From a virus: a stretch of 29,569 nucleotides of DNA. This document shows positions 1-14,879 of this stretch, piece after piece. Under the pieces are notes generated by a model. It worked only from the letters and a program-made list of their open reading frames with translations. It did not search any database and had not been told where the DNA came from. The position numbers were made by a program, and so were the translations under genes. The stretch spans positions 1-29,569 of IMG/VR virus record IMGVR_UViG_3300044640_001635. The stretch is one strand, 5' to 3'. The first letter of the stretch is position 1, and every line of letters starts with the position of its first letter.

Positions 1-1
1 C

Positions 2-304
2 CATGCAAGAACACTAGACCAAACGGATAACATTCGTAAAGAACTGGTGTTGCTCGTGGAAATACTTGAGTCACATGATCTAGCTCAAGTCGTAGAAACA
101 CTTAGACAACAGCTTGCAAAAGTGAATCAGGAGTTGTGGGATATCGAAGATCACAAACGCAGTCATGAAAAACACAAACTATTCGATGATGCGTTTATTG
201 CTCTAGCTAGAAATGTGTACATCAAGAACGATCAACGTGCTGTTATCAAAAGACAGATCAATACATTATGTCACAGTGACATAGTGGAAGAAAAATTATA
301 TTAG
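2..304 (+). CDS. DUF6165-like protein, C-terminal part (5' end outside window)
   Basis: The reading frame is open from the left edge to TAG at 302-304, giving about 100 residues. A GTG at 47 could be an internal start, but the frame continues upstream and the sequence before it (HARTLDQTDNIRKEL) looks coding, so I treat the gene as cut by the window edge. The visible part is helical. It contains LAKVNQELWDIEDHKR, FDDAFIALARNVYIKNDQR and an ending in DIVEEKLY, which matches the pattern I know for DUF6165 (NxxLWxIED, FIxLARxVYxxND, VEEKxY). The function of DUF6165 is unknown; members often lie near surface-polysaccharide genes in bacteria and phages. The gene runs toward the leftward gene block and is followed 10 nt later by a perfect hairpin. 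The family assignment is from memory of the motif and was not searched. Confidence 0.7.
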   Translation, partial: HARTLDQTDNIRKELVLLVEILESHDLAQVVETLRQQLAKVNQELWDIEDHKRSHEKHKLFDDAFIALARNVYIKNDQRAVIKRQINTLCHSDIVEEKLY

Positions 305-310
305 TTATTA

Positions 311-340
311 AGAGAACTGCTACGCAGTTCTTTGTTCTTC
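311..340 (+). terminator. Hairpin with T-rich tail after the DUF6165-like gene
   Basis: GAACTGC (314-320) and GCAGTTC (324-330) form a perfect 7-bp stem with a 3-nt loop. The run TTTGTTCTTC follows. The hairpin starts 10 nt after the stop codon at 304, as expected for a rho-independent terminator of the rightward gene. The U-tract is interrupted, so termination may be partial. On the other strand the same stem could help stop leftward transcription. Confidence 0.6.
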
Positions 341-388
341 GCTTACGCTCGAACAATGTTTTGATTTGTTTTATTGAGCGTAAGCGAA
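338..388. terminator. 13-bp perfect inverted repeat between convergent genes
   Basis: TTCGCTTACGCTC (338-350) is the exact reverse complement of GAGCGTAAGCGAA (376-388), with a 25-nt A/T-rich loop. It lies just downstream of the 314-330 hairpin. Because the flanking genes converge here, it probably acts as a terminator or mRNA-end stabiliser for one or both directions. There is no clean T-tract directly after either arm, so its role is inferred. Confidence 0.45.
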
Positions 389-399
389 ACAGTTATCAT

Positions 400-477
400 C
401 TAGATTCTTTGGTCATAGTTGCCCGTTAACCGGGCAAGGTATGATTCGTCGTCATCATCTGAGTTCGTATCAGTCAT
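400..477 (-). CDS. Possible 25-aa acidic micro-ORF
   Basis: On the minus strand ATG at 477-475 opens 25 codons ending in TAG at 402-400. The peptide begins MTDTNSDDDDESY and ends NYDQRI, with a run of four Asp. It has no good Shine-Dalgarno site. It overlaps the 7-bp hairpin TTGCCCG/CGGGCAA (419-425/431-437). It lies downstream of and in the same direction as the leftward block. The acidic composition is not random-looking, but a 25-codon ORF is easily found by chance, so this is a weak call. Confidence 0.15.
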   Translation of the reverse strand: MTDTNSDDDDESYLARLTGNYDQRI

Positions 478-762
478 CTAGTATCAGGAGATTTACAGTA
501 CATTGGCATTATCGTACTGTATCGGAGGCGGTTATGCTGTACCCCCTACCCCAGCCTTGTCTCACAACGGAGTGCAGTTGATCCCATACTAGCGAAATCA
601 CTTGCATAGCGGTTGTATCTGTTTCACAGAGCCGCAATCTTTTAGGCCTAAGTTAGCTTGTTCTTTGACGCCCAAGATCTGATGGCACAGCACAACCTGT
701 ACAACCTCAATGGGGCCAGTCCACGACTGGCACAGTGTCTAATTTGTTGCTTTAAAATTTGT
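478..762. other. Intergenic region without a convincing gene; several hairpins, possible structured RNA
   Basis: I see no ORF with a persuasive protein in these 285 bases. The region holds several inverted repeats: TACAGTAC/GTACTGTA (494-501/514-521); GCGGT/GCCGC (609-613/631-635) enclosing TCTGT/ACAGA (618-622/626-630); and GCCAGTC/GACTGGC (715-721/725-731) with a 3-nt loop. A 15-codon ORF at 534-581 has a strong Shine-Dalgarno site (GGAGG at 524-528), and a 42-codon ORF starts at ATG 682; neither is recognisable. I looked for tRNA T-loop and acceptor patterns and found none. The nested stem at 609-635 is the best sign that a structured RNA could be made here, but the strand is undecided. 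Confidence 0.3.
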
Positions 763-792
763 TTGGTAAGAGTGGATCAACACTCTTGCCAA
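763..792 (-). terminator. Terminator-like hairpin after the sulfotransferase-like gene
   Basis: TTGGTAAGAGTG (763-774) pairs with CACTCTTGCCAA (781-792) in a 12-bp stem with one G-U pair and a 6-nt loop. It begins 6 nt past the last base of the leftward gene ending at 799. In the leftward transcript it is followed by ACAAATTTTAAAG, a weak U-tract. Position and stem strength suit the 3' end of the leftward operon. Confidence 0.55.
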
Positions 793-798
793 GATGCC

Positions 799-1515
799 TT
801 ATTTTAATTTGATAGTTTCTAACACAGGACGAATTGTTGCATGTTGCAAGCTAATCCAGTATTCTACAAAATCAAATCGTATTAATTTGTGTTTGAGGTC
901 TAAATGCTTGATAATGTTGCCGTACACTATTTCAAATTTTTCTAAATTAATCAAGTTGCCAAATGATACTTCTAGTAGTCTGTTGTCTACGAACTGTGAT
1001 TCGTTGCTAACAAACTGTGCAGTATCATCATACACAAAATCAGAATACTGATTGTTGTTTTTGTATGTTGCTAGCCACTGAGTCGCCTGTTTCTCTAATA
1101 AGTTGCCTGGGGTAATTCTTATTATTTTTGCATTGGGGAAAAACAATAATATTTTAGAAATTTCATCATTGCGGCAATAGTGATTAGAGAATATCACCTG
1201 ATCCATCAAACTGTAATTTAAATTTTTTCTTCCAATTTCTGTATTGATGTCGTGTATTAGTTGTTGATTGAGTTCAAGTTGTTGAGTTTGTTTGTATTTT
1301 ATATTTGTAAGTTTTGAGTCAGTTGGTCTGAATATAACCTGCCCATGTTCGCTGATTCCAAAATAGTAACATCCTGTTTGACCATAATGAAAATTTACAA
1401 TCGCTGCCAGCAAATCGCCAGCAGCTCCTGGGGGGTAGACTATCCATACACATGGATCGTCTTTTGAAAAATCAACACCGTCTATGAAATGTTCAAATTT
1501 ACTATCGTACTTCAT
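799..1515 (-). CDS. P-loop, sulfotransferase-like protein (238 aa)
   Basis: This is the last gene of the leftward block. Near the N-terminus (about residues 23-37) it has VWIVYPPGAAGDLLAA, a glycine-rich loop after a beta strand. This resembles the PAPS-binding P-loop of sulfotransferase-like proteins seen in marine phages. A second strand, ILLFFPNAKIIRITP (near residue 125), fits the second nucleotide-contacting region of that fold. The C-terminal FGNLINLEKFEIVYGNII resembles the usual tail helix region. The substrate is unknown; such enzymes modify glycans or small molecules. The start ATG directly follows the stop codon of the upstream GIY-YIG-like gene (TAA-ATG) and has no clear ribosome site, so it is probably translated by coupling. 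A hairpin follows the stop. The fold assignment is by motif only. Confidence 0.55.
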   Translation of the reverse strand: MKYDSKFEHFIDGVDFSKDDPCVWIVYPPGAAGDLLAAIVNFHYGQTGCYYFGISEHGQVIFRPTDSKLTNIKYKQTQQLELNQQLIHDINTEIGRKNLNYSLMDQVIFSNHYCRNDEISKILLFFPNAKIIRITPGNLLEKQATQWLATYKNNNQYSDFVYDDTAQFVSNESQFVDNRLLEVSFGNLINLEKFEIVYGNIIKHLDLKHKLIRFDFVEYWISLQHATIRPVLETIKLK

Positions 1516-1950
1516 TTACAGTTGCATTTTGTTTATAATATGTGATCCATGTACTCTAACTTGTATATGACCATTGTAATAATCTCGTGATTCTAATACT
1601 TTTCTTGAAAACTGCTCTCTTGCCTCAATGTAACTACATTCTGATTTGGAGTTGCAATAAAAAAGTATTTCTCTGGTGAAGTTTTCGGTGCCTAGTTTTT
1701 CGATGTCTGAAGTCAATTCTGGGCTTGACCCATAGTACTCTCTCCAGTCTGAGTCGACTTTTGATCGTATCTTTTTCTTCTTCTTTGTGCCGTTTTTGAG
1801 TTTGACTGTTTTTTGAGTTGTCTTACTAAATTTTGCTAATTTTTTGCCTATGTACTTGCGTCCAGAAAGATTATTTGTGATCAAATAAACAAATCCTACA
1901 CAATCTTCTGGTAAAGTCTCGATCGGAGTATTTTGATATAACCAGGTCAT
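1516..1950 (-). CDS. GIY-YIG-like small nuclease (144 aa)
   Basis: Residues about 19-37 read GFVYLITNNLSGRKYIGKK. This matches the GIY-YIG signature, with F-V-Y in place of G-I-Y and a clear KYIGKK. A lysine-rich segment (KNGTKKKKKIRSK) follows, then SDWREYYGSS and a helix containing YIEAREQ whose Glu could be the metal ligand of the family. Small proteins of this type, starting with a W-Q-N-x-P motif, are common in T4-like marine phages and are usually annotated as putative endonucleases. Whether it is a homing enzyme, a repair nuclease or inactive cannot be told. It lies 57 bp downstream of gp46, and its stop touches the start of the next gene. No strong Shine-Dalgarno site precedes the ATG. 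Confidence 0.65.
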   Translation of the reverse strand: MTWLYQNTPIETLPEDCVGFVYLITNNLSGRKYIGKKLAKFSKTTQKTVKLKNGTKKKKKIRSKVDSDWREYYGSSPELTSDIEKLGTENFTREILFYCNSKSECSYIEAREQFSRKVLESRDYYNGHIQVRVHGSHIINKMQL

Positions 1951-2007
1951 TTGTGTATACAGTTTGTTTTTGCATTGTAGTTATGCCTATCTAGTGATGT
2001 TTTAAAA

Positions 2008-3777
2008 TTATATAGAATTCGTGTCTATGTCGTTACTGTAGCTGGTAAATCCGTTTTCCTTGATAACCCGTAGTGTGTTTTCTACTCGGCTTGCCAGTTC
2101 GTCCTTGTGAGAAACCAGCCAGATTGATTTGTTTCGTTCGCGAGCCATTTGTTTCAACACACCCAGTGCAGATTCAACCCCAACTGTGTCCATGCCTGAA
2201 TCAATCATCTCATCAACAAATAATACATTGATGGGTTGATACAAACTCTCCCACACATCTCGAAATGCCCAGGAGATGCCTAGGATCAGTCGATTGCGCT
2301 CGCCGCGAGATAGATTATCAAAATCTAATTCTCGGCCTAGTTCAGTAATTTCCACAGTCAGGTCATTCTGAAATACCACCTGGTGTGGCAATCCAATGCG
2401 ATCCAGATAGTGTGTGAGTCTGCTGTTGAGGTAACTTAAATTCTGGTCAATGATCTTTTTGCGAACAAAACTATCCTTGCTGGTTAGCAGTTTGAGCAAG
2501 AAGTCTTGATGTTCTTGCAGTCGAGTTAGAGCATTGAGTGTATCATAAGTGATAACCTGCAATGCTTGTCCTTGCATTTCTTCTATTTGTTCTTTGTATG
2601 TGTCAACATCAGATTGTCTGCTGGATAGATCTTTGCGCAGTGTTTCTAGGCTGTTGCGATGATTCAATGCGTCTTCTAAGGTGTCGTAGAACACAACAGG
2701 GGCTGTACCAATAGGTCCTAGCTCTTTTAATTTGTCTTCATGCTCCAGTCTTTGAGACTGATTGGCCAATAACTGTAGTGCATGTTCTTGCAGTGTTTTC
2801 TGGCGTTGTTCCTTGACTGTGTCAAGACTGTTGTCGTGTATTTCAGTACCGCATGCAAAGCATTTGTGATTTGAAATCTCAACCAAGTCTTGACGGATCT
2901 GATTGACTTGTTTTTCAATTTTAGAGTTATCGGCATCGATGGATCTAATCCACTTGGTAGCATCATCAATGGATTTTTTCTTTGCATGAAAAATCTCCAA
3001 ATCACGATGAGCTTGTACTTCTGCATCAATATCGATGTGTTCTAGATCAGCAATGGCCTGCGCCAGCTTGGCAACATCGTCGTCACGTTTGGTAATCCAC
3101 ATTCGTTGTCGTTTACGCAAACTTTCAATTTGTTCTTCAATTCGTTTGTTGGCTTCCGACACTGCACGTATACGAAACTCTTCTTGAGTGATTGCTTCCT
3201 TGGTGGATCGGTTGAGTTCGCGAATCTTATCTGCACGTTCACTCAACAGGGTAATACCCAGCAGTTGCTCAATGATCACACGCTGATCATTGGCTTTCAA
3301 ACTCAAGAAAGGTTCGGTGTACGTGTTGAGTGCAACAATATGTCTGAACATGTCCAACGGCATGCCAAGTATGCGTTCAATGTCTGATTGTGTTTCTCGA
3401 CTGTCGCCTTGTGCTTCATCAACAGCAACTTGTTCTTCACTGTCAACATAAAATTTAAGAACATTGGGTTTGCGGCCACGCTCAATACGATAGTCACGCC
3501 CATTGATTGCAAAGTCTAAACTCACAAACATGTTCTTACCATTAGTTCTATTGATAAGATTGTCTTTGCGAATATTTGTCAAGGCCTGACCATACAATGC
3601 ATAGCTCACAGCATTGAGAATGGCTGTTTTACCAACACCGTTGCGGGCGCCATCACCTCCGAGGTCAAGATTTTCTCCCAGGACCAGCGTCAAGTCGCGA
3701 CGATCAAAATCAACTGCTTGTGTGTTGTTTCCGATGCTGAGAAAGTTACGGGCTGTAATAGTTTTAATTCGAATCAT
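2008..3777 (-). CDS. gp46: gp46, recombination endonuclease subunit (Rad50/SbcC-like ATPase)
   Basis: This SMC-like ATPase pairs with gp47 to resect DNA ends for recombination-dependent replication. It is 589 aa; T4 gp46 is 560. The parts are in the expected order: ITARNFLSIGNN at the N-terminus; Walker A GARNGVGKT (about residues 43-51); a long coiled-coil region; a zinc hook with Cys306 and Cys309 (CFACGTEIHD) in the middle; a second coiled coil; signature LSRGERNR (from 489); Walker B NVLFVDE (Asp522/Glu523); D-loop SGMD (from 527); and H-loop with His557. Everything needed for activity is present. Its ATG overlaps the preceding stop (ATGA), which suggests translational coupling to the glycosyltransferase-like ORF upstream. 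In this genome it is separated from gp47 by that inserted pair of ORFs. Confidence 0.96.
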   Translation of the reverse strand: MIRIKTITARNFLSIGNNTQAVDFDRRDLTLVLGENLDLGGDGARNGVGKTAILNAVSYALYGQALTNIRKDNLINRTNGKNMFVSLDFAINGRDYRIERGRKPNVLKFYVDSEEQVAVDEAQGDSRETQSDIERILGMPLDMFRHIVALNTYTEPFLSLKANDQRVIIEQLLGITLLSERADKIRELNRSTKEAITQEEFRIRAVSEANKRIEEQIESLRKRQRMWITKRDDDVAKLAQAIADLEHIDIDAEVQAHRDLEIFHAKKKSIDDATKWIRSIDADNSKIEKQVNQIRQDLVEISNHKCFACGTEIHDNSLDTVKEQRQKTLQEHALQLLANQSQRLEHEDKLKELGPIGTAPVVFYDTLEDALNHRNSLETLRKDLSSRQSDVDTYKEQIEEMQGQALQVITYDTLNALTRLQEHQDFLLKLLTSKDSFVRKKIIDQNLSYLNSRLTHYLDRIGLPHQVVFQNDLTVEITELGRELDFDNLSRGERNRLILGISWAFRDVWESLYQPINVLFVDEMIDSGMDTVGVESALGVLKQMARERNKSIWLVSHKDELASRVENTLRVIKENGFTSYSNDIDTNSI

Positions 3778-4340
3778 GCGTTCTTTTGTAATGTGGTCCT
3801 GATGGTATCAAGTTCATTATTGATTAACGATTTTAACATATCGCGGTTGTGGTTCACGACCGGTTGTATCTCCAATCGCATATTTTCTAATGCAGTCAGG
3901 CTAAGTTCCGAAAGGCGTTGCAATTCTTGAGCAACATGTTGTATTCGTTGTGCCACCCAAGGCAAGTCATCGTATCCTTCGTTCCACCAGTGGCTGAATG
4001 TCTTGAACCCTAGATCTTGCATTTTCTTCAAAGTGTGCCTGGGACCAATCATCATAAAAGGCACAGCAGACACCAGTGCTTTCCAGGTTTTTTCCGTGAT
4101 GCGAACATATGGATAATCACCCACTGTCTCAGTAATAACATACACTAGGGAATGTTGAAAACATGCTGGAGTAAACAACGAGTCTCTAGTGAAATCTTCA
4201 ATACCTGGGTGTTGGTACTCAGCGTTGACAAACTTGTCAAGATGTTTGTTGTATACTCGCCATTGTTCTTGATCAAAGTTTTGCAAGTCATCGTTGATGC
4301 GGGTGAACGGGGAAGTGATTCTTAGTGGTCCGTGATTCAT
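3774..4340 (-). CDS. Exostosin/glycosyltransferase-like protein, C-terminal half (188 aa)
   Basis: The key region is YVITETVGDYPYVRITEKTW followed by PFMMIGPRHTLKKMQDLGFK and WWNEGYDD. This is the pattern F/Y-x-x-TEKT(W/F)K ... PF-x-x-x-G-x-x-x-TL-x-x-L-x-LGF-x-TF-x-x-W-(W/F)-x-E-x-YD, seen in exostosin-like glycosyltransferase proteins of phages and marine genomes. It is normally the nucleotide-sugar-binding half of a protein of about 400 residues. Here it starts at an ATG overlapping the stop of the upstream 222-aa ORF (ATGA) and lies in the -1 frame relative to it. So it looks like the second half of a split gene that may still be made by translational coupling. It sits between gp47 and gp46. 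Sugar donor and acceptor are unknown. Confidence 0.6.
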   Translation of the reverse strand: MNHGPLRITSPFTRINDDLQNFDQEQWRVYNKHLDKFVNAEYQHPGIEDFTRDSLFTPACFQHSLVYVITETVGDYPYVRITEKTWKALVSAVPFMMIGPRHTLKKMQDLGFKTFSHWWNEGYDDLPWVAQRIQHVAQELQRLSELSLTALENMRLEIQPVVNHNRDMLKSLINNELDTIRTTLQKNA

Positions 4341-5005
4341 GGCTTCATGGCCGCCTTGTCAAGATAATGATTAAATGTCACAAAGTATGACAGCATGCCG
4401 TGGTTCAACAATCCTAATTCAGCAAGCCAACATAACAATAGAAGTCGGTGCGATCTCTTTTGGCCATTGAAACATGTGTACAAGTGTGATATAGGCAACA
4501 GTGGATGCTTGACAGCATGGGTAGTATCCAACTTCTCCAGTTGAGGAAAGTCGTACCAGTAATGAGTGCGTATTACCACAGGTGGTTCTGAATTACACAG
4601 TGTTCTAGCAGCCAACTTAACTTCTTCTTCGAGTCCGTATAGATTGGTGAGAATGAGTATTTTCTCACATGGTAACCCAAAGTCAGATACCAATCTAAAA
4701 AAATTGTACAGAGTATTGCCCATGCTGTTGATTGATGGGTAATAGTCAGTGTCGTGATGTATTATTAGTAGTCGTTGATTGTGACCAAACGTTGTATTGC
4801 GAAATTGCCAAAGTTGATCAGCTAGTTGATCCATCTGATGATCGTAATCAACTAAATTGAATGTGGCCACGATCTCGTGGTGTTCTTCAATTACATCCAT
4901 CACCTCTTGTTTGAGTCTAGTAGAATAAAACGTATCAAAGCTGGATATTTGTATACGTTGTAATTCTTCAAGTTCTTCAGGAGTTAAATCTTTTCTCACA
5001 GACAT
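4337..5005 (-). CDS. N-terminal half of a glycosyltransferase-like protein (222 aa)
   Basis: The N-terminal 60 residues are acidic and helical (LTPEELEELQRIQ). Then follow strand-loop elements RLLIIHHDTDYYP and KILILTNLYGLEEEV typical of a Rossmann-like half-domain. Near the end is YTCFNGQKRSHRLLLL, similar to the C-(F/L)-NG-x-x-R-x-HR element that precedes the TEKT domain in exostosin-like phage proteins. Here the TEKT domain is encoded by the next ORF in another frame. The ORF starts 10 nt inside the end of gp47 and ends with an ATGA overlap. I read it with the next ORF as one ancestral gene, either broken by a frameshift or working as two coupled subunits. No clear slippery heptamer is visible at the junction. 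Confidence 0.5.
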   Translation of the reverse strand: MSVRKDLTPEELEELQRIQISSFDTFYSTRLKQEVMDVIEEHHEIVATFNLVDYDHQMDQLADQLWQFRNTTFGHNQRLLIIHHDTDYYPSINSMGNTLYNFFRLVSDFGLPCEKILILTNLYGLEEEVKLAARTLCNSEPPVVIRTHYWYDFPQLEKLDTTHAVKHPLLPISHLYTCFNGQKRSHRLLLLCWLAELGLLNHGMLSYFVTFNHYLDKAAMKP

Positions 5006-6012
5006 TGATAAACCTGTAGCAATAGCTTTGGGTCATAAAAATCTGATTCAATCTTGGTAATTTGATCAATCACAATTTGATCAACTGACTCAAATTTAAC
5101 CTGCCCGGGACTCAGGTCTTCTTCAACTCCGGCTCGTTTGTTAGCAATCAATGCCATTTCACGCAAATTGTATTTTTGCACAAACGTGTCTTTGATATAA
5201 TTGGCTTCCTCGTAAGAAATTTCAATGTCTAACTGAACTCGCACATGCATTCGTGGTGCCAAAATTGTATCAGCATTGTCAATTACATTTGACAAATTGT
5301 ACGATCTGTAAGTGGGTTGATTGTCCCAGACAAAGTACTCTGGCTCTTGGCCCCATTCAAGAATCATCATACCACGTGCGTCATCTCCTGCATCAGAAAA
5401 GTTGTGCGGGAACGCATTTCCAATGTAGCTAACATTTCGTTTGTGTTGTCGTAGATGAAAATGCCCAGAAAAAACAGAATCAAATCCACCAAAGCTATCA
5501 ACTCTAAGTTCGCCGTGATCTGGCATCTCTACCATGGCATTCATCTTGAAGCTTGGCAGTTCAAAATGCCCAAACATGTACTTGCCTTTTAGCTTGGCAA
5601 TTTTTTTGTGATCATCGCCAATCAACCAAGGAGCAATCACTACATCACCTTGATTGAACCAGTCATTGCAGATCACAATGTTTGGTAAATGCTTGGCCCA
5701 CTCGGCCCCGTGAATATCTCGTTTGTCACGATAGTACAGGTCGTGATTCCCGGGAATAAAGTAAAATTTTTCAAATGCAGCCGACAACTTTTCAAGTGCT
5801 CTAACACTGAATTGCAGTGTTTGCAAATTGATTGACGCTCGGTGGTTGTGCCAGTCACCTAGAAACATTCCAGTCTCGCATCCCTCGGCTTGAGCCTTGC
5901 TGATAAACCAGTCTACAAACTGGTCACAGTCCTGATTGTGCACAAGACTATTGGACTTTAGACCCCAGTGGATGTCGGTGAATACTGCTGTTTTTTTAAA
6001 TAGATTTGCCAT
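4996..6012 (-). CDS. gp47: gp47, recombination endonuclease subunit (Mre11/SbcD-like)
   Basis: This is a metal-dependent phosphoesterase that works with gp46. The phosphoesterase motifs are present in order: Asp13 and His15 in TDIHWG; GDWHNHR (52-58); GNHD (88-91); GHF (148-150); and SGHFH (182-186, His184 and His186). I chose ATG at 6012-6010 (MANLFKK), which gives 338 aa, against 339 for T4 gp47. A longer frame begins at ATG 6027, but that codon overlaps the -10 element of a good promoter and would fall outside the transcript. The chosen ATG lies 6 nt after the -10 box and has no Shine-Dalgarno site, so the mRNA may be leaderless. The 3' end overlaps the next ORF by 10 nt. Confidence 0.95.
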   Translation of the reverse strand: MANLFKKTAVFTDIHWGLKSNSLVHNQDCDQFVDWFISKAQAEGCETGMFLGDWHNHRASINLQTLQFSVRALEKLSAAFEKFYFIPGNHDLYYRDKRDIHGAEWAKHLPNIVICNDWFNQGDVVIAPWLIGDDHKKIAKLKGKYMFGHFELPSFKMNAMVEMPDHGELRVDSFGGFDSVFSGHFHLRQHKRNVSYIGNAFPHNFSDAGDDARGMMILEWGQEPEYFVWDNQPTYRSYNLSNVIDNADTILAPRMHVRVQLDIEISYEEANYIKDTFVQKYNLREMALIANKRAGVEEDLSPGQVKFESVDQIVIDQITKIESDFYDPKLLLQVYQCL

Positions 6013-6018
6013 TCTGTT

Positions 6019-6047
6019 ATTATACATTATTCAATGTTGATACTCAA
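6019..6047 (-). promoter_or_regulatory. Sigma70-type promoter for gp47 (leftward)
   Basis: On the minus strand TTGAGT (6047-6042) and TATAAT (6024-6019) are separated by 17 nt. The -10 is a perfect consensus and the -35 matches four of six positions. The predicted start of transcription (6-7 nt after the -10) falls on or next to the gp47 ATG at 6012. Confidence 0.6.
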
Positions 6048-6061
6048 GTCAATTGGCAAGA

Positions 6062-6110
6062 TACCTCAGATGAGGTAAATGCAAACTGCGGTCAACTGAC
6101 TATCCAGTTG
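6062..6110 (-). other. Two small hairpins between gp55 and gp47
   Basis: CAACTG/CAGTTG (6093-6098/6105-6110) and TACCTC/GAGGTA (6062-6067/6072-6077) are two 6-bp stems in the gap after the gp55 stop codon. Neither is followed by a T-tract. They may weaken read-through from the gp55 promoter or protect mRNA ends. Confidence 0.3.
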
Positions 6111-6116
6111 GTAACA

Positions 6117-6998
6117 TTATTCAGGATTGATAGTTACTTCGCCAGGCGCACTTGCTGGCGATTTGGAAAATTGTCTTGACCATGATGGGCTCAATCCGTT
6201 CATTTCCAAGATATCGTCACGGATGTTTTGCATTTTTTTCTCGATGTTTAGGACACGAGTGAAACTATTAGTGATAGCGGCAGTATAATACGCAAAAGGG
6301 TTCTGCGATTTTGACTCATCAAACTGGAGTCCGATTTGACTGAGTTGTAGCAAGGCTTGTCCTCGCATTTCTTCGTTGTAGGTGTATCCACGCCAATTAC
6401 TCCTTGTAGCATATCTTTCGCACAGCTTCATAAACATTGTGGCTAGTTTACGAGTCATGTTACCGTGATCTCTGCTGTAGCTGCCAGTGGTTAAGTCTCC
6501 GATCCAGTGGCTTTTGCCCACAATGTATGGAATCTTGTGATCTGTGATTCGATAGTGAAAAAACGGGGGGAAGTTGACTCTAACATGCACTGGATCAAGT
6601 ACTGGCTCGTCAACAAGATCATCTAACGGATCTTCAGAGGGCAGTTCTTCAAACCCCAGGATGTCTTCAATTTTTTTCTTTTTGATTTTTGATTTAGGAA
6701 CTTTTTTAGCTGCCATGGGAATATGCTCCCAGGTCATGATGCGGAACACCAAATCTGTGTTATTCAGTTTCTTTTCGTTTACTGCAACGCCTGTTTCTTT
6801 TGTGAGTCGAGCCGCACGATTTCTGCGAGCTTCTGCAACAGTCTTTTGATTGATTTTGCTAACAGACGATAAAATAATATCATACTGATGATCAGTAACT
6901 GGATCTAGATAGCTACAGTAGGTATTTTTGCTTGCGTGTATTTCTTTTAACAAATCTCGATTGTTGAGATAGTTAACTCTTGGTGGAGTGGTTGACAA
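6117..6998 (-). CDS. gp55: gp55, late-transcription sigma factor
   Basis: This is a sigma-like factor that directs RNA polymerase to late promoters. The conserved half is VNFPPFFHYRIT, then VGKSHWIGDL, then SRDHGNMTRKLATMFMKLCERY, NWRGYTYNEEMRGQALLQL and NPFAYYTAAITNSFTRVLN, which is the helical sigma region 2-like core of the gp55 family. I place the start at TTG 6998-6996 (293 aa): AGGAG (7010-7006) lies 7 nt upstream, and the ATG at 7034 lies between the -35 and -10 of the promoter and so is unlikely to be transcribed. An internal ATG at 6716-6714 has its own GGGAG 9 nt upstream and would give a 199-aa form close to T4 gp55 (185 aa). The N-terminal 94 residues before it are a separate basic/helical segment of unknown role. 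A lysine-rich stretch and an acidic linker follow that ATG. Confidence 0.9.
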   Translation of the reverse strand: MSTTPPRVNYLNNRDLLKEIHASKNTYCSYLDPVTDHQYDIILSSVSKINQKTVAEARRNRAARLTKETGVAVNEKKLNNTDLVFRIMTWEHIPMAAKKVPKSKIKKKKIEDILGFEELPSEDPLDDLVDEPVLDPVHVRVNFPPFFHYRITDHKIPYIVGKSHWIGDLTTGSYSRDHGNMTRKLATMFMKLCERYATRSNWRGYTYNEEMRGQALLQLSQIGLQFDESKSQNPFAYYTAAITNSFTRVLNIEKKMQNIRDDILEMNGLSPSWSRQFSKSPASAPGEVTINPE

Positions 6999-7016
6999 AG
7001 TGGATCTCCTATTCTT

Positions 7017-7050
7017 GTATTTATTATAGCACATTTTGTGTAGATGTCAA
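7017..7050 (-). promoter_or_regulatory. Strong sigma70-type promoter of gp55, overlapped by a late-promoter box
   Basis: On the minus strand TTGACA (7050-7045) and TATAAT (7028-7023) are both perfect, with a 16-nt spacer and an extended -10 TG (TGCTATAAT). The sequence ATAAATAC (7024-7017) overlaps the end of the -10 and matches the T4 late-promoter consensus. Either start point would fall a few bases before the AGGAG site at 7010-7006. So the gene can be read early by host RNA polymerase and possibly late by its own product. Confidence 0.85.
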
Positions 7051-7056
7051 CCTTTT

Positions 7057-7100
7057 TATAAACTACGCGGTTTAAAACGTAGGTAAATATCGTATTAGGA
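7057..7100 (+). promoter_or_regulatory. Candidate late promoter and ribosome site for the baseplate operon
   Basis: Two imperfect late-type boxes lie in the divergent gap: TATAAACT (7057-7064) and GGTAAATAT (7082-7090). The second would start transcription near 7095, just before TAGGA (7096-7100), which is 9 nt from the gp48 ATG at 7110. Neither box is a full match to TATAAATA, so the exact promoter is uncertain, but the rightward operon needs one here. Confidence 0.4.
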
Positions 7101-7109
7101 CAATATACC

Positions 7110-8378
7110 ATGGCAATACCAGACCCAGTAGGAACAGACGATCCAGAAGTTGCTGCCGAACTAGCGGCAGCAGAGAGATTGGCCGCCGAGATAGCAGGCC
7201 CGCGCAGTACCGACGAAGATGTTAGTAACACAGCTGGTTATCCCGAAAGCGTTTTTGATCCAACTTTTGGCGGCCTCTTGCTGTCTCCAGAAGAAGTCGA
7301 TGCTGAACTAGAAAGAGCCGCAGCCGAAGGTATTGAAAACTCCTTGCCCGAACCGCCTGATGATGAAACCAGCTACTATCCACGTGGCGCCAATGGCACA
7401 GCCTTTGATGATGATGGAAATCTAAACCCAGGGTTTAGAATCAACCCTGAAACTGGCGAAGCATATTTCGCTGGTGACGGATTTATTGATCCCGAAACAC
7501 TAGCCAGCGCCGAGGCCAGTCGTGGAGCGGCATTGACTCAAGCAGCCACCATACGAGCACGCAGCCAAGCCGCAATCGAATCTCAGCGCAAGCAAGCCAA
7601 CAACGGTGACTGGCGTGTTAAATTGAGATTGGCCGGAGCATCAAATTATCTGTACAATGATCCAGAGATCACTCAAGATGGCATTTTGTATCCACTCCAA
7701 GTCACAGATGGTGTTATATTTCCTTATACTCCTACCATTCAGACCACATACGGAGCAAACTACAGCAGTTATGATCTAACACACTCTAACTATCGAGGCC
7801 ACTTTTATCAAAACAGCTATGTTGACGATATCTCAATCTCGGCAATGTTCACAGCACAAGACACTAGTGAGGCAAACTATTTGCTGGCAGTGATTCACTT
7901 TTTCAAGAGTGTTACAAAAATGTTTTACGGACAGGATGCTCAGCGAGGACTACCGCCACCGCTTGTGTTCCTGCAAGGCCTTGGTGAATACCAGTTTAAT
8001 TTGCACCCATGCGTGGTAAAAGCCTTTAACTACAACTTGCCAGCAGATGTTGATTATATTCGTGCACGAAGTGTAAATCTTGATGGCACTAGTTTGCTTC
8101 AGCGCAGAGATCGACAAAGTTTACCGACTACGGGCGCAGGATCAGCTCTGGCATCGTTGATTAGATTGGCCAATGCTGGACTTAACGGATTGAAGCCAGG
8201 TGCTCTAAACTCACCTCCCGCACCAACTACGTTGGGAACAAACGCCCCAACCTATGTTCCTACAAAAATGGACATAACACTAACTCTAATGCCAATACAG
8301 ACTCGACAACAAGTTAGTCAACAGTTTAGTCTTAAAAACTTTGCCAATGGCAACTTGCTCAAGGGAGGATTCTGGTAA
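7110..8378 (+). CDS. gp48: gp48-like baseplate tail-tube cap/initiator protein
   Basis: The protein has 422 aa. The conserved part starts near residue 168 (NGDWRVKLRLAG) and runs through FPYTPTIQTTYGANYSSYD, NYRGHFYQNSYVDDISIS and FTAQDTSEANYLLAVIHFFK to VTKMFYGQDAQRG and YQFNLHPCVVKAFNYNLP. This is the gp48 pattern of T4-like phages: a protein that caps the baseplate hub and starts tail-tube polymerisation. The first 165 residues are Ala-, Asp-, Glu- and Pro-rich and look disordered, as an added N-terminal extension (T4 gp48 is 364 aa). A TAGGA site is 9 nt upstream. The stop codon overlaps the gp53 start by one base. gp54 is the main alternative, but the sequence and the position before gp53 favour gp48. 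Confidence 0.82.
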   Translation: MAIPDPVGTDDPEVAAELAAAERLAAEIAGPRSTDEDVSNTAGYPESVFDPTFGGLLLSPEEVDAELERAAAEGIENSLPEPPDDETSYYPRGANGTAFDDDGNLNPGFRINPETGEAYFAGDGFIDPETLASAEASRGAALTQAATIRARSQAAIESQRKQANNGDWRVKLRLAGASNYLYNDPEITQDGILYPLQVTDGVIFPYTPTIQTTYGANYSSYDLTHSNYRGHFYQNSYVDDISISAMFTAQDTSEANYLLAVIHFFKSVTKMFYGQDAQRGLPPPLVFLQGLGEYQFNLHPCVVKAFNYNLPADVDYIRARSVNLDGTSLLQRRDRQSLPTTGAGSALASLIRLANAGLNGLKPGALNSPPAPTTLGTNAPTYVPTKMDITLTLMPIQTRQQVSQQFSLKNFANGNLLKGGFW

Positions 8379-8677
8379 TGGCCAATTATACTGCAACTAG
8401 CCCATATTTTTTAACACCGTACACTCAGTTTTATTTGGACAGCATGGTCAATCGATCTTTCCCCAGAGAAAGTGATGACGTGTTTTTCAAACTCAATCAG
8501 ACATATCAGTACCGGCCTGATTTGCTGGCATTTGACTTGTATGCTGACGCTGGCTTGTGGTGGGTTTTTTATCAGCGAAACCCAAATACATTAACTGCAC
8601 CACCTTGGGATTTTGAAGCTGGCAAAACAATCTACCTGCCTAAGATTACCACGCTACGTTCAACTTTGGGATTTTAA
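8378..8677 (+). CDS. gp53: gp53 baseplate wedge protein
   Basis: This is a 99-aa wedge component that helps join baseplate wedges around the hub. The hallmark is YRPDLLAFDLYADAGLWWVF followed by QRNPNTL, PPWDFEAGKTIYLPK and a C-terminal tail. This is the LysM-like gp53 pattern (Y-RPD-x-LA-x-DLY-x-x-x-x-LWWVF-x-x-RNPN ... G-x-x-I-x-x-P). The protein is shorter than T4 gp53 (196 aa) because only this core is present. GGGAGG at 8363-8368, inside the end of gp48, lies 9 nt before the ATG. The start overlaps the gp48 stop (TAATG), so translation is likely coupled. Confidence 0.9.
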   Translation: MANYTATSPYFLTPYTQFYLDSMVNRSFPRESDDVFFKLNQTYQYRPDLLAFDLYADAGLWWVFYQRNPNTLTAPPWDFEAGKTIYLPKITTLRSTLGF

Positions 8678-8680
8678 ACA

Positions 8681-11680
8681 ATGGCTGCTTTACCTAGTAA
8701 TGTCACAGCACAAGCTGAACGTGCGTTAAGTCTGGCCCGCAAATTTGCAGTTTTTGGAGAACCCGGCTATGCACAAACTATAGCAGCCTTGGAAGCGGCA
8801 AGATCGGCAGTGGAAGCGGCGTCTAGTATAAGCCCATCATCGGCACAGTATTGGATAACACAATTAACCAATGTCATAGCCGAAACCAACGCTGCCGAGC
8901 TTCAGTCTGGCTCACGTGGTGGTGAAATTACCAGTGCAGGTCAAACGGTAATTGCTGCTCAGGCAGCAAGAGACAACGGAGCTTCCGCACAAGATCCTCC
9001 AGTGCCGGTGGTAACAGGCGGCGCAAACTCAGACGATGCAGCACCATCCAACTCTGCAAACTTCAGTAATGCTGACAGATTTGTACCTGACTCAGACATT
9101 GGTACCGATGGCCGAATCAGAACCACAACTGAAACACAGGCCACACCCCCGGGCACCAATTCATCAACATCGTTAACCTCAATTGGTGGTGCCAATCCTT
9201 CTGACGAAGAAAATGTAACCGACCTTGGCGAAATTGTGATTACAGCCGCACGAGAACCCGGTGCAGGCGCCGCAAGTGATGATGGCACAACCGCTGGCAT
9301 AATTGCGGCAGGTGCAACGGACCAGTCACAGCTTCAAGTGTCGGGCAGTAATGCAATAACAACTTTGGTTAATAAAACTGCTAGACCTATTGTGCCTCGT
9401 CCCAACGTGCTAGATAGATACAGCAGTTACACTTATTCAATCAGCATATACTTGATGAGTCCAGACGACTACTCTAGATTGTTGACCACAAAAAAACGAT
9501 TCATTCCGGGATACCAACTGTTAATGCAAAGTGGCGGCGCTCCAGGCAATGTAACACAAACTTCAGTTGACACAACCATTAATGGATTAACATTTGATTC
9601 TGGAAATACCAGCAAAGGACGCAATCAATTTTTTCCACTAGATTACTATCTAGATGATGTTGAAGTCAAAAGTGTAATTCACGGGAAAGGCACAAATGCC
9701 GCACACAATGTAGTTGAACTTAAATTTAAAATCACAGAACCAAACGGAATCACATTGCTGGACAATTTGTACAAGGCTGTGCAAAACTACGTTACCGTAG
9801 GCGGCGGCGCATCTAAAGCAACTGCGGCTGCAAACTATGCCGCCCAGAACTATCTAATGGTGATTCGCTATTACGGATATGATGAAAATGGCAATATAGC
9901 CAAACCACTTAGCTCAACTGGTAATAGATCAGACACAAATGCAATTTTGGAAAAATTTATTCCGTTTCAGTTCTCGGGCATAAAATTTAGAATATCTAAT
10001 AGACTTACTGAATACTCATGTGAAGCTGTGTGTCCGCAAAATGCAATTGCAACTAGTCAAGGACGAGGTGTCATTCCTTTCAACATTGAACTCACTGCAA
10101 CAACATTACAAAATTTGTTTTCAGGCAACGAAACATGGACCGCAACTAAAAATAGACAACAGACTGATCGAACACAACAAAGTCCAGTCACTGCGCCATC
10201 TAATGCAGCCGCGGCCCCAGATGTGAGTTTGGCCACTGGACTGGCACAGGCCTTGAACAAGTACCAGGCAGAGCTGGTCAAGCAAGGAACATACGAAGTT
10301 GCTGATGTGTATAAAATTATTATCAGTCATCCCGAGTTGGCAAATGCCAGCATAGTTCCGCCAACCATTACAGATTTAAAAACCAAGCCCATGACACAGG
10401 CTACTACAGCAGCTCAAGCAATTGATACCAATGCTCAAACAGTCAATACTCGAGCCAAAACAGTCAGCGCAACAGCTGGTATGAGTTTGACTCAGTTTAT
10501 TGATCTAGCAGTGCGTAGCAGTGACTATGTTTACAAACAACAGAATAAAATTATTGATCAAAACGGCAAAGAAATACCTCAAGGTGCAGGCGCAAAGGCA
10601 TTTGCCTGGTATCGAATTGGCACACAGGCTAAACCATTAAAACAAGACAACAAACGAAACGACACTGCATATGAGATAACTTATGAAATTGCTCCTTATG
10701 GCATCAATGACATCAAGAGTGATTATTTTCCCAAGGGTGTGTTCCGTGGTGCTCAAAAAAGATATGCCTATTGGTTCACAGGAGAGAATACATCTGTATT
10801 GAATTTTGAGCAAGATTTTAATTACCTGTATTACATCACCATCAACAGTCGCACAAGAGCCACCGTCAGCAGTCGAGGCACAGCGGACTATCGAGAAATT
10901 GAAAAGAGACTGTTTTCGCCCAACAGCCCACAGACAAACCAAGGCCTTGAGGGTGATGCAAACGAACCAGGCGCAAACGCCGCTGATTATTTGTACAGCC
11001 CGGGAGATCAAAGTCGTGTAAAGTTAACCATTCTTGGGGATCCTGCTTGGATTGAGCAAGGAGAAGTATGGTCAGGGGTGCGTAGCACCGGGAACTCTAG
11101 TAACGAATCAACTGATGTATACTTTGATGCGTTCCTGTCAGATGATACCATTAATTTTGATTCACGTGAAGCTTTATTTGAAGTATCGTTTAACAAGCCG
11201 GCTGATTATAATTTATCAACAGGAGTTATTGATCTTAAGGGCACCGGCGGAGCAGCCACACAAACATACATCTACAAAGCTGTTACTGTGGTCAGTAACT
11301 TCAGGAAAGGAAGTTTTACACAGGATCTTGAAGGAGTAATGTTGGTGTTCCCAGATTCAGTAACAACAACTAAAAAACTTGTTGAACAAAACGGGGCAAC
11401 AAATCAAGGTGCATCCTCTACGGACTCTAGAAATCAACCCGATGAGTCTGCAGCCGAGACAGCTAGACTTGCTCGCCTAGCTGGCGCCGCTGGATCATTA
11501 ACGCCTAGTCCTGAAGTGGTATATACTGATCCAATGGGCAGTGACGATGGATCAGCAATAATGAATGCCGTGGAAGAAAGACAACGATTGTCACCCCCAC
11601 CAACTCCAGTTGGCGCAACACTACCCACTGATGTTGGCGTATACACTGATGCATCAGATGGAATTGTAAGAGACGAATAA
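8681..11680 (+). CDS. Large hub-like virion structural protein (999 aa)
   Basis: I do not recognise a T4 number for this protein. Its place between gp53 and gp5 makes it a baseplate component, perhaps a functional counterpart of hub protein gp27. It has two compact cores between low-complexity linkers. Core 1 (about 240-482) has YSISIYLMSPDDYSRLL, FFPLDYYLDDVEVKS and NVVELKFKITEPNGITLLDN. Core 2 (about 600-915) has MSLTQFIDLAVRSSDYVY, YEITYEIAPYGIND, VLNFEQDFNYLYYITIN and ILGDPAWIEQGE, ending in FRKGSFTQDLEGVMLVFP. Phrases such as GDPAWIxQGE and GSFTQDLEGV are familiar from hub-type proteins of marine T4-like phages. Residues 1-235, 483-600 and 920-999 are Ala/Ser/Thr/Gln-rich and probably flexible. 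Residues 182-191 (GEIVITAARE) resemble a TonB box. The gene starts 3 nt after gp53. Confidence 0.7.
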   Translation: MAALPSNVTAQAERALSLARKFAVFGEPGYAQTIAALEAARSAVEAASSISPSSAQYWITQLTNVIAETNAAELQSGSRGGEITSAGQTVIAAQAARDNGASAQDPPVPVVTGGANSDDAAPSNSANFSNADRFVPDSDIGTDGRIRTTTETQATPPGTNSSTSLTSIGGANPSDEENVTDLGEIVITAAREPGAGAASDDGTTAGIIAAGATDQSQLQVSGSNAITTLVNKTARPIVPRPNVLDRYSSYTYSISIYLMSPDDYSRLLTTKKRFIPGYQLLMQSGGAPGNVTQTSVDTTINGLTFDSGNTSKGRNQFFPLDYYLDDVEVKSVIHGKGTNAAHNVVELKFKITEPNGITLLDNLYKAVQNYVTVGGGASKATAAANYAAQNYLMVIRYYGYDENGNIAKPLSSTGNRSDTNAILEKFIPFQFSGIKFRISNRLTEYSCEAVCPQNAIATSQGRGVIPFNIELTATTLQNLFSGNETWTATKNRQQTDRTQQSPVTAPSNAAAAPDVSLATGLAQALNKYQAELVKQGTYEVADVYKIIISHPELANASIVPPTITDLKTKPMTQATTAAQAIDTNAQTVNTRAKTVSATAGMSLTQFIDLAVRSSDYVYKQQNKIIDQNGKEIPQGAGAKAFAWYRIGTQAKPLKQDNKRNDTAYEITYEIAPYGINDIKSDYFPKGVFRGAQKRYAYWFTGENTSVLNFEQDFNYLYYITINSRTRATVSSRGTADYREIEKRLFSPNSPQTNQGLEGDANEPGANAADYLYSPGDQSRVKLTILGDPAWIEQGEVWSGVRSTGNSSNESTDVYFDAFLSDDTINFDSREALFEVSFNKPADYNLSTGVIDLKGTGGAATQTYIYKAVTVVSNFRKGSFTQDLEGVMLVFPDSVTTTKKLVEQNGATNQGASSTDSRNQPDESAAETARLARLAGAAGSLTPSPEVVYTDPMGSDDGSAIMNAVEERQRLSPPPTPVGATLPTDVGVYTDASDGIVRDE

Positions 11681-11695
11681 TAGGAAACCCGCAGA

Positions 11696-14440
11696 ATGTC
11701 AAGTAATATACAACGAAGTCGAGGCCGAGGTGCAGCTTATAAATTTGATCGCGGTGGTATGCCAACGGAGATGGGTCCTTTTATTGGCGAAGTCAAAAAC
11801 AACGTTGATCCGGCCAAGGGTGGTCGATTGCAGGTATACATTAAACAATTTGCTGGTAATAACCCTGACGATAAATCGCTGTGGCGCACAGTGTCGTATA
11901 TTCCTCCGTTTTACGGAGTTACCCCAGGTAACAATTCATCTACCACAGTTGGCCCAGGCAACTACAAGGGCAATCAACAAAGTTATGGCATGTGGTTTAC
12001 CCCGCCTGACATTGGGGTTAATGTTATTTGCTTCTTTGTAGCTGGCGATCCAAACCAGGGATATTATCTAGGATGTGTGCCAGATGATGGTGCAAACCAC
12101 ATGATACCAGCTATTGGTGCCAGCAAAAAGTACGTGTTGCAAAATGCAGAACAAAAAAAATTAGCAAGCGGCGCCAATGCAACTCAATTACCAGTTGTTG
12201 AGGCAAACTTTTATAGCAAAGATGTAGATGCTGACCCAAGATTTTTCTTGCAACCCAAACCGGTGCACAGTTATGTGTTTGCTATTCTGGCCAACCAGGG
12301 ACTGTTGGGGGACAACATTCGTGGGCCAATTACAAGCAACAGTCAAAGAGAAAGTCCTAGTTCAGTATTTGGCATCAGCACACCCGGCCGGGCCATTTAT
12401 CAAGGCGGCCTAACCGAAGCAACAATCAAACAAAAGCTAGATGCTGGCCAAATTAAAAAAACTGATATTCAAATTGAGGGGCGGCGCGGCGGGCACAGCA
12501 TTGTACTAGATGACGGTGACCTTAAAGGTGTTGATAATCTGGTTCGCATACGAACCAGTAAAGGACATCAAATAACCATGAGCGATGATGGTGATTGTTT
12601 GTACATCATTCATGCCAACGGCCAAAGCTGGATTGAGATGGGTTCCGAGGGAACCATTGATATGTATGCATCAAATTCAGTCAACGTCAGAACTGAAGGC
12701 GTTCTCAACTTACACGCAGACAAAGACGTCAACATCAATGCCAATGGCAAATTAAACCTGCGCGGGAAAACAGTATCAATAGAGAGTAAAGGTGCAATGT
12801 CTTTAAACAGCAGTAAAACATTGACCATGGTTGGCAAGATGTCAGTTGGTATATCAAGCACCGGAAGTGTTGCTGTAAAAAGCACGATTGGAAGTTGGGC
12901 ATCAACCGGATTTTTAAACCTCAAAGGTGCTGTGGTAAACATCAATGGGCCTGTGCCTGGTACCCCGGTACTGGACCCAACACCAATACAACTTTACAAA
13001 CTAGACGATACAGCGTTTTCTGCAGCCAAGGGTTGGACAGTAAAACCTGGAGAGCTTGAGAGTATTGTAAATCGTGCCCCCACACATGAACCATACCCGT
13101 ATCACAACCTTGGGGTGCCAATCACAGTGGATTACAGCGACACAGGTGCTGGCTCCAGCGATAATGTTGAGGCAGCACCGCAAACAGAAGAAGTTAACTC
13201 TGCATTGGAAACCACTGTTGACTTGCCAGTAGTTGATGCAATTGACAATCAAACTTTGTTGTCGACTACCCCGGCAACAGACGCCATTGGAAACTTGTCC
13301 ACCAATGAAGTGACTAGTCTAATGGCACAAGCAAAAACTGCTGTGGGGCAAGCCGCAGATGCTGTGAGCATTGACAAAGGAATTGGCGAATTTGGATTCA
13401 AGCCAGAACAGTTGGAATCAGCTGGATTACTCAAACCTGGTACAGTAACACAGTTAAAATCTATAACATCTGGTATACCAAGCGCAGCCGACATTGCTCA
13501 AGCAGCCAAAATTAATCTTACTCCTGAGCAAGTGGCAGTCGGAAACAAAGTCTTAAAAACTTTGGCATCACCAACTGTGTGGACTGGGCAAAATGGTGTT
13601 ACTAATCTAACAGGGCTGTTGAAAAATAATAACTTGCAATCTGATGTGCAACAAGGATTAATGTCTACTGCATTAACTGGACTGAAAGCCACAGGGCTAG
13701 TGTCTGGATCAGAAACAGCACAAAAACTGGGATCGCTTGTGCAGTCTGCTACCAAGTTTGGGGTTGGCGGAACAACACAATGGGTCAACGGAGTTGCAAA
13801 TAATAAACTAGTACAGGATGTTTCAAGCACAATCAAGAGTGCACAGTACGCAGTGAACTTTGTTAGTTCTCAGGCAACTAATGCTACCAAGTTGTTGGGT
13901 ACTCTGGGAACATCAACTGGCGCATCTGGTGCATTGTCAGTAGTATCAAGTGCAACAGGGCAAGCTAATCAGGTGTTATCAAGTGTAACAGGTGAAGTAA
14001 ATCAGGTGTTATCAAGTGTAAGCAACCAAGCAAATCAAGTAATTGGACAAGTCACTGGGCAACTGTCGGGCGCAGTAACTGAGGTGACTAGCCAGGTTAC
14101 AGCAGCCCTAGGCGATATTGTTGGACCGTTACGAGGACTTGGCGGACTTGGAGACCAATTTAGCAGTTTAAGCGGTTTGTCGGGAATAACTGGACTACTA
14201 GGTGGTAGCGGACTTGGCGGGTTATTATCAGGCGGGCTTGGAAATGTCTTGGGTAGTCTAGGACTAAGCAGTCTAGGTAATCTTGGTGGCCTTGGCGCAA
14301 TTGGCGGGCTGTTTGGCGGCGGTGGCGGTGCAGTTCCGGCTAGATACGCAGCTAACACAGTGAATAGAAAAGCTGTTGACAATGCAATCAATGCAGCTCT
14401 TGGAGATTCAAAGATCCCTCCAATAACGTACTCCACATAA
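11696..14440 (+). CDS. gp5: gp5-like baseplate hub/needle protein without lysozyme domain (914 aa)
   Basis: This is the central spike of the baseplate. Residues about 24-140 form the gp5 OB-fold (MGPFIGEVKNNVDPAKGGRL, SLWRTVSYIPPFYG, GMWFTPPDIGVNVICFFVAGD). Residues about 255-422 hold the beta-helix needle, with repeating V-x-V/L-x-L elements (NSVNVRTEGVLNLHADKDVN and similar). No glycosidase domain lies between them, unlike T4 gp5, where a lysozyme follows the OB-fold. The second half is an extra C-terminal region of about 490 residues: Ala/Thr/Gln-rich helices, six 11-residue repeats (746-811), a Gly/Leu-rich stretch (about 812-885) and an ordered tail. AGGAAA at 11682-11687 precedes the ATG. 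The core assignment is secure; the role of the tail is unknown. Confidence 0.9.
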   Translation: MSSNIQRSRGRGAAYKFDRGGMPTEMGPFIGEVKNNVDPAKGGRLQVYIKQFAGNNPDDKSLWRTVSYIPPFYGVTPGNNSSTTVGPGNYKGNQQSYGMWFTPPDIGVNVICFFVAGDPNQGYYLGCVPDDGANHMIPAIGASKKYVLQNAEQKKLASGANATQLPVVEANFYSKDVDADPRFFLQPKPVHSYVFAILANQGLLGDNIRGPITSNSQRESPSSVFGISTPGRAIYQGGLTEATIKQKLDAGQIKKTDIQIEGRRGGHSIVLDDGDLKGVDNLVRIRTSKGHQITMSDDGDCLYIIHANGQSWIEMGSEGTIDMYASNSVNVRTEGVLNLHADKDVNINANGKLNLRGKTVSIESKGAMSLNSSKTLTMVGKMSVGISSTGSVAVKSTIGSWASTGFLNLKGAVVNINGPVPGTPVLDPTPIQLYKLDDTAFSAAKGWTVKPGELESIVNRAPTHEPYPYHNLGVPITVDYSDTGAGSSDNVEAAPQTEEVNSALETTVDLPVVDAIDNQTLLSTTPATDAIGNLSTNEVTSLMAQAKTAVGQAADAVSIDKGIGEFGFKPEQLESAGLLKPGTVTQLKSITSGIPSAADIAQAAKINLTPEQVAVGNKVLKTLASPTVWTGQNGVTNLTGLLKNNNLQSDVQQGLMSTALTGLKATGLVSGSETAQKLGSLVQSATKFGVGGTTQWVNGVANNKLVQDVSSTIKSAQYAVNFVSSQATNATKLLGTLGTSTGASGALSVVSSATGQANQVLSSVTGEVNQVLSSVSNQANQVIGQVTGQLSGAVTEVTSQVTAALGDIVGPLRGLGGLGDQFSSLSGLSGITGLLGGSGLGGLLSGGLGNVLGSLGLSSLGNLGGLGAIGGLFGGGGGAVPARYAANTVNRKAVDNAINAALGDSKIPPITYST
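13931..14128 (+). repeat. 33-nt (11-residue) repeats in gp5 C-terminal region
   Basis: Six consecutive 11-residue units can be aligned (residues 746-811). Examples are ANQVLSSVTGE, VNQVLSSVSNQ and ANQVIGQVTGQ, with hydrophobic residues at positions 1, 4, 5 and 8. At DNA level a 22-bp stretch (13967-13988) recurs exactly at 14000-14021, a 33-nt period. This is hendecad spacing, typical of a right-handed coiled coil or amphipathic helix bundle. Confidence 0.7.
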
Positions 14441-14445
14441 TACAC

Positions 14446-14456
14446 AATAAATACAC
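14446..14456 (+). promoter_or_regulatory. T4-type late promoter box before gp25
   Basis: AATAAATACAC lies between gp5 and gp25, with ATAAATA at 14447-14453. It matches the T4 late consensus TATAAATA except for the first base. The gp25 ATG at 14458 follows only 4 nt later, so a transcript from this box would begin at or just inside the start codon. Confidence 0.6.
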
Positions 14457-14457
14457 T

Positions 14458-14832
14458 ATGCCTACATTTATTGGTTTTAACACTATCAATCAAAACAAAA
14501 AGTTCACACTGACTGATGCCCAATTGGTCAAACGTGATCTTTCCAACGCACTAAACATTCAGCCAGGCGACCTAGTGGGAAAGCCCGAGTATGGAACAAA
14601 TATCTGGAGTTATGTATTTGAAAGTCAGATACCAGAAACTTCAGCCAGGATACTAGCTGAACTACAACGAGTAGCCGGCGGCGATCCACGAATTTTTATT
14701 TCAGATGCACAAGTATACCCGCAAGACAATGGTGTGCTGATCGAACTACAAGTGATGATAGTTCCAAGCAGTACTTCAGAACGGTTGTCGTTATTTTTTG
14801 ATCAAACATCTCGACGTGCAAGCTTTATCTAA
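14458..14832 (+). CDS. gp25: gp25 baseplate wedge protein
   Basis: The protein has 124 aa, against 132 for T4 gp25. It is the sheath-anchoring wedge protein of contractile tails (GPW/gp25 family). Typical elements are FTLTDAQLVKRDLSNAL, LVGKPEYGTNIWSYVFE (the conserved PxFG-x-x-(I/L)W-x-x-(L/V)FE region), then EDS-like ISDAQVYPQDNGVLIEL and a final RLSLFF strand. No Shine-Dalgarno site is visible; the 17 nt before the ATG are taken up by a late-promoter box. gp6 follows 47 nt later, again with a late-promoter box. Confidence 0.93.
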   Translation: MPTFIGFNTINQNKKFTLTDAQLVKRDLSNALNIQPGDLVGKPEYGTNIWSYVFESQIPETSARILAELQRVAGGDPRIFISDAQVYPQDNGVLIELQVMIVPSSTSERLSLFFDQTSRRASFI

Positions 14833-14853
14833 AAGTACATAGTTTATTTGGGC

Positions 14854-14862
14854 CATAAATAC
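14854..14862 (+). promoter_or_regulatory. T4-type late promoter box before gp6
   Basis: CATAAATAC (followed by TC) matches the T4 late consensus TATAAATACT at all but the first base. The expected start, about 6 nt after the box, gives a leader of about 13 nt before the gp6 ATG at 14880. A weak ribosome site CGAGA (14871-14875) lies in that leader. Confidence 0.7.
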
Positions 14863-14879
14863 TCAAACAACGAGATACT

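Follow-up and report, generated by a model that had tools for sequence, protein, structure and literature searches.

A late-type box fused to the host-type early promoter of a gp55 late sigma factor gene in uncultured giant bacteriophages

Introduction

In T4-like phages, late gene expression has the late sigma factor gp55 as its master switch, and the question of how the level of the switch itself is set has rarely been addressed. The question is raised by a gp55 gene found in a 29.6-kb IMG/VR fragment (hereafter the window, meaning the whole stretch of DNA analysed), before which a preliminary description had placed a consensus host promoter whose -10 hexamer overlaps a second box, the same as that found before gp25 and gp6. 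T4 late promoters and their gp55 sigma factor form an established system (PMC2988020).

The gp55 gene and its carriers

The gene occupies positions 6998-6117 of the minus strand, starts with TTG (6998-6996) and encodes a protein of 293 aa, placed by homology in the late sigma family through its match to phrog_12791 ("sigma factor for late transcription", E 1e-74), with a further match to phrog_234 (E 8e-24). An ATG at 7034 was considered as an alternative start and rejected, as the NYLNNRD N-terminus found in all relatives and the AGGAG site favour TTG 6998. The C-terminal hydrophobic clamp-binding motif (SLDFLYE in T4), similar forms of which are conserved in T4-family gp55 homologues (PMC2988020), was absent by inspection from gp55 of the window and its relatives. 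The assignment used here comprises homology and, by family, a predicted late-sigma role; clamp-dependence is not part of it.

The nearest phages of the GenBank collection, the PA5oct group, show 40% identity to the gp55 of the window, and the best 80 IMG/VR contigs encode gp55 proteins 72-87% identical to it. Some of these contigs exceed 340 kb, and the carriers as a group are giant bacteriophages that are uncultured. The next gene downstream encodes a gp47/SbcD-like nuclease subunit (4996-6027, minus strand; phrog_100, E 2e-53), near which a promoter-like site matching 10 of 12 positions was found at 6047-6019. Elsewhere in the window, an open frame of 3730 codons or more (18380-29569, plus strand) follows gp6 directly and is cut off by the contig end. 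No Rfam match was found within the window.

Architecture of the promoter

The promoter elements were read on the minus strand, which the preliminary description had left unstated. An exact consensus -35 hexamer of host (sigma70) type, TTGACA (7050-7045), is followed by a spacer of 16 nt (7044-7029), inside which the rejected ATG lies and whose 3' end is the TGC of an extended -10 (7031-7029), and by the -10 hexamer TATAAT (7028-7023), which reads TACAAT in most relatives. The site thereby has both hexamers, a spacer within 16-18 nt and TG before the -10, as expected of an extended -10 sigma70 promoter, and it represents the only 12/12 sigma70 match within positions 1-15000; an exact match with the gp55-type spacer occurs once in the whole window, where sites with the same spacer and at most two mismatches number 4 against 5.0 expected. 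The late-type box ATAAATAC (7024-7017) begins on the last two bases of the -10, so that the overlapping pair is present as first described.

By the usual -10 spacing, the early start is predicted at A7016. In T4, the late box spans -13 to -6 (PMC1524935), and this rule applied to the gp55 box predicts a late start at A7012, about 4 nt past the early one. Both starts fall upstream of the Shine-Dalgarno site AGGAG (7010-7006), which precedes the TTG codon and is left intact in either transcript, in agreement with the initial reading.

Three copies of ATAAATAC were found on both strands of the window against 1.2 expected, and as 13% of shuffles contained three or more, this count by itself is not above chance. 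All three copies directly precede genes, namely gp55, gp25 (14447) and gp6 (14855).

Conservation of the box

Conservation was assessed on 58 distinct gp55 promoters of the clade, of which 40 formed a subset matched by a regular expression. Within that subset, TTGACA and the 16-nt spacer were kept in 40/40; across the 58, the -10 is conserved as TANAAT and the TG of the extended -10 was retained in 50. The five bases after the -10 read AAGTA in 30 relatives, AAATA in 23 and another sequence in 5, giving AARTA in 53/58 (91%), and in the columns beyond it the information drops to about 0.3-0.5 bit each. The preliminary description had proposed an alignment of related phages to see whether both elements are conserved, with absence of the box from close relatives as the refuting outcome. 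The host promoter is near-invariant and AARTA is kept; as to the box in its exact form ATAAATAC, more than half of the relatives lack it, and what they share is the purine-tolerant version.

Through Fitch reconstruction on the gp55 protein tree, 2-5 changes per column were counted for the four fixed letters of the box and 10 for its A/G column, compared with 13-23 in most spacer columns, 15-21 in the columns right after the box and 0-2 per column in the -35 hexamer. Because changes are few in the box and many in the flanking columns, the box is, on this comparison, a selected element under clear purifying selection, with tolerance for either purine at the fourth position. The gap from the box to the Shine-Dalgarno site measures 6-8 nt in 35/40 distinct relatives, which would leave room for a late start immediately ahead of that site. 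Two relatives, L044 and L050, carry TAAATA displaced by one base downstream and out of register with the -10, a shift which would be as expected of an independent box, and three others (L026, L058 and L074) have lost the box altogether. Operator-like inverted repeats in the spacer or -35 region were also seen by eye in some relatives (e.g. L001, L006, L021 and L041), at inconsistent positions: TTTGACA-N4-TGTCAAA, ACAACTGTTGT, GGTTGACAACC and AAATGTTGC-N6-GCAACATTT.

Specificity among early promoters

A survey of 1.59 Mb in the contigs of six relatives, based on the exact pattern TTGACA-15..18-TANAAT, returned 80 sites, mostly on the gene-rich strand. The idea that AARTA marks the early promoters of the clade in general was considered and rejected: it follows the -10 at 3/80 exact sites, all three belonging to gp55, and at 0/76 non-gp55 exact-consensus early promoters. 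Most other early promoters in these relatives have a spacer of 17 nt, compared with 16 at the gp55 genes of the clade. A sister clade was collected by using the PA5oct gp55 protein, and among its 40 distinct gp55 upstream regions a strong host-type promoter was found in 36, mostly with a 17-nt spacer, AARTA in none and TAARTA nowhere within 45 nt. The box is absent from these other early promoters and from the sister gp55 genes, and early promoters therefore do not have it as a rule; as judged by these comparisons, it is a genuine element that in this clade belongs to gp55 alone. Since a host-type promoter lacking the box stands before gp55 in the sister clade and in other phages, T4 and cyanophages among them, the early promoter is the old, shared part of the arrangement and the box a clade-specific addition.

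Relation to the late promoters of the clade

TAAATA is enriched 18-fold upstream of genes, and ATAAATA 41-fold; TAAATA is retained in 322 ortholog pairs across six genomes and is clearly the late box of the clade. In the window, ATAAATAC lies 3 nt before the ATG of gp25 (14447-14454, plus strand; the gap from TAAATA to ATG is 4 nt) and upstream of the leadered gp6 (14855-14862, plus strand). Among distinct relatives, TAAATA was found upstream of gp25 in 44/44, ending 4-5 nt before ATG in 42, and upstream of gp6 in 39/39. The claim that gp55 carries the same box as these two genes is only half right: it holds within the window, where ATAAATAC stands at all three, but not uniformly in the relatives, as the fourth core base is G (TAAGTA) in 30/53 box-bearing gp55 promoters against 0/44 at gp25 and 0/39 at gp6 (0/83 together; Fisher 5e-16 for A/G use, a value that ignores relatedness and overstates the evidence). 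At 12-30 nt before the start codon, the TAAATA core, in the late-box form T/N-ATAAATA, is present at gp55 of the window and of 23/58 distinct relatives, and TAAGTA in 30/58. The -35 hexamer at gp55 belongs to the overlapping sigma70 promoter, T4-type late promoters needing none and being read by gp55-RNA polymerase together with the clamp (gp45) and gp33.

That TAAGTA might be an ordinary variant of the late box was also considered, given a raw 7-mer enrichment of 15-fold for ATAAGTA. As a general variant it was ruled out: among sites at late-promoter distances it does not outnumber TAACTA or TAATTA, and it replaces TAAATA in 3 non-gp55 ortholog pairs (about 1% of the other orthologous late boxes) against the 322 that retain it.

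The late promoters of the clade show two further features. In the contigs of six relatives (L082-L163), the gap from TAAATA to the start codon is bimodal, with 83 genes at 4-6 nt (29, 34 and 20 at gaps of 4, 5 and 6), a trough and a broad mode at 16-26 nt, so that about a third of the late boxes end 4-6 nt before ATG. Starts of this short-gap class are ATG in 103/110 cases, the class is conserved between orthologs in 148 pairs, and gp25 has no Shine-Dalgarno-like site in 42/44 distinct relatives. Because transcription starting as in T4, 6 nt past the box, would begin at the AUG, the short-gap late mRNAs of this clade, the sister clade and HTVC008M are predicted to be leaderless. Counts of TAAATA-N4-6-ATG versus N9-11-ATG were 174 versus 54 in the clade, the sister clade and HTVC008M; in T4, syn9, PA5oct, GAP32, RaK2 and others, no short-gap excess was found (168 versus 171).

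The second feature concerns the virion gene divergent from gp55 (7110-8378, plus strand; phrog_12050, virion structural protein). Its late box, (G)TAAATA (7084-7089, plus strand), is preceded 23 nt upstream by the element AACTACGCGGTTT (7061-7073, plus strand), and in relatives this motif recurs before gp6 with identical spacing. A AACTACGCAGTTT-like element lies exactly 23 nt upstream of TAAATA at 52/401 distinct sites (L001-L080), against 2 at any other spacing, and AACTACGCGGTTT is therefore, on sequence grounds, a -35-region element of two late promoters, those of gp6 and of this virion gene.

In addition, TATAATAAATA precedes RNA-like sequence without an obvious TTGACA at four places on the minus strand (105790 in G010, 222292 in G006, and 40553 and 232192 in G004). 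The RNA-like sequence of G010 resembles the start of a tRNA, and these sites are possible late or dual promoters of tRNA or small RNA genes.

Proposed mechanism and alternative readings

The reading that is put forward, and to which about even credence is given, is that a strong early promoter has been fused to a weakened late box, through which gp55 would exert low-level feedback on its own gene or shut it off early. As suggested by the consensus, host RNA polymerase with sigma70 would transcribe gp55 early from the strong extended -10 promoter. The sequence (A)TAARTA, sharing one or two bases with the -10, would then serve as a box of late type displaced downstream by about 4 bp, from which gp55-RNA polymerase could initiate about 4 nt past the early start, at a point that still precedes the Shine-Dalgarno site. 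As their footprints coincide, the holoenzymes of sigma70 and gp55 would be mutually exclusive, and with accumulating gp55 a weaker late initiation would take the place of the strong early one, so that the level of gp55 is first limited and then sustained. The frequent G where ordinary late boxes have an invariant A suggests that late reading is kept weak. Both the identity of gp55 as reader of the box and the sign of the feedback, activation or repression, are inferred. Against this reading stand the TAAGTA form of 30 of the 53 boxes, the loss of the box in three relatives and the missing SLDFLYE-like end of the window's gp55. No phage Rpb2-type polymerase was detected in 10 records, whereas 14/14 control genomes were positive, which is consistent with use of the host polymerase; Pfam searches for a clamp and for AsiA gave no matches, the controls being likewise blank.

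The main rival holds that AARTA is read by something other than gp55, either as an element of the start region by which the sigma70 open complex is tuned or as the operator of a phage regulator acting on gp55 only, the late-box match in the A lineages being coincidental. It draws on the purine tolerance of AARTA, which is unlike that of true late boxes, and on the locking of the box to the -10 in a fixed register with a fixed 16-nt spacer in this clade. Yet no other early promoter in the six relatives' contigs has AARTA and the sister phages manage without it, four of the five box letters are those of the late core, and the L044/L050 lineage keeps TAAATA out of register; we judge this reading a credible one that falls well short of even probability. 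It is unlikely that the box acts as a repressor site only, at which gp55-RNA polymerase binds weakly and shuts off the early promoter with no productive initiation: the full overlap of footprints and a consensus that is weakened in more than half of the relatives fit occlusion better than activation, but the conserved 6-8 nt gap between box and Shine-Dalgarno site would suit a productive late transcript, even if the early transcript needs that site too. Chance or shared ancestry, by which an AT-rich leader after a strong -10 happens to hold a late 7-mer, would accord with the count of ATAAATAC in the window, which taken by itself is not significant, but is very improbable and largely refuted, as the box was kept while adjoining columns diverged to near randomness and as only about 1.6% of the AT occurrences upstream of genes have AARTA next to them on the downstream side.

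A broader proposal is possible, although we lean slightly against it: that host and late sigma boxes offset by about 4 bp constitute a composite promoter with built-in handover and feedback, in which the A/G position would be an evolvable dial of late-reading strength. Direct autoregulation by gp55, through a clade-wide selected box fused to the early promoter, is a testable hypothesis, and the natural A/G variants of the box represent a ready-made series for measuring it.

Comparison with known systems

The late system of T4 likewise combines a gp55-family sigma factor with a short box of TATAAATA type, which spans -13 to -6 upstream of late structural genes (PMC2988020, PMC1524935), and the late box of the clade varies at its first base, like those of RB49, KVP40 and S-PM2. 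The clade differs from the T4 system in that half of its gp55 boxes read TAAGTA, and in that its late promoters of gp6 and the divergent virion gene have a putative -35-region element, which T4 late promoters lack. The gp55 gene of T4 is preceded by the extended-10-like TGATATAAT, which no box follows, in contrast to the fused host promoter and box of the clade, and extended-10-like promoters lacking the box also stand before gp55 in syn9, HTVC008M, ACG-2014f and RaK2/GAP32/Munch/PBECO4. In PA5oct, RaK2, GAP32, Munch, PBECO4, syn9 and the sister jumbo phages, a host-type promoter directly precedes gp55 in most, as in the clade, but none has TAARTA overlapping the -10.

In a literature search that covered few of the subscription papers, no published gp55 gene was found in which host and late elements are fused and overlap, or which is under dual early and late control. 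A comparable logic is known from AR9, in which the "continuously expressed" genes, the late RNA polymerase genes among them, have an early as well as a late promoter (PMC5312081). AR9 employs two phage RNA polymerases acting at separate, tandem promoters, whereas in this clade the elements physically overlap and the host RNA polymerase is probably used.
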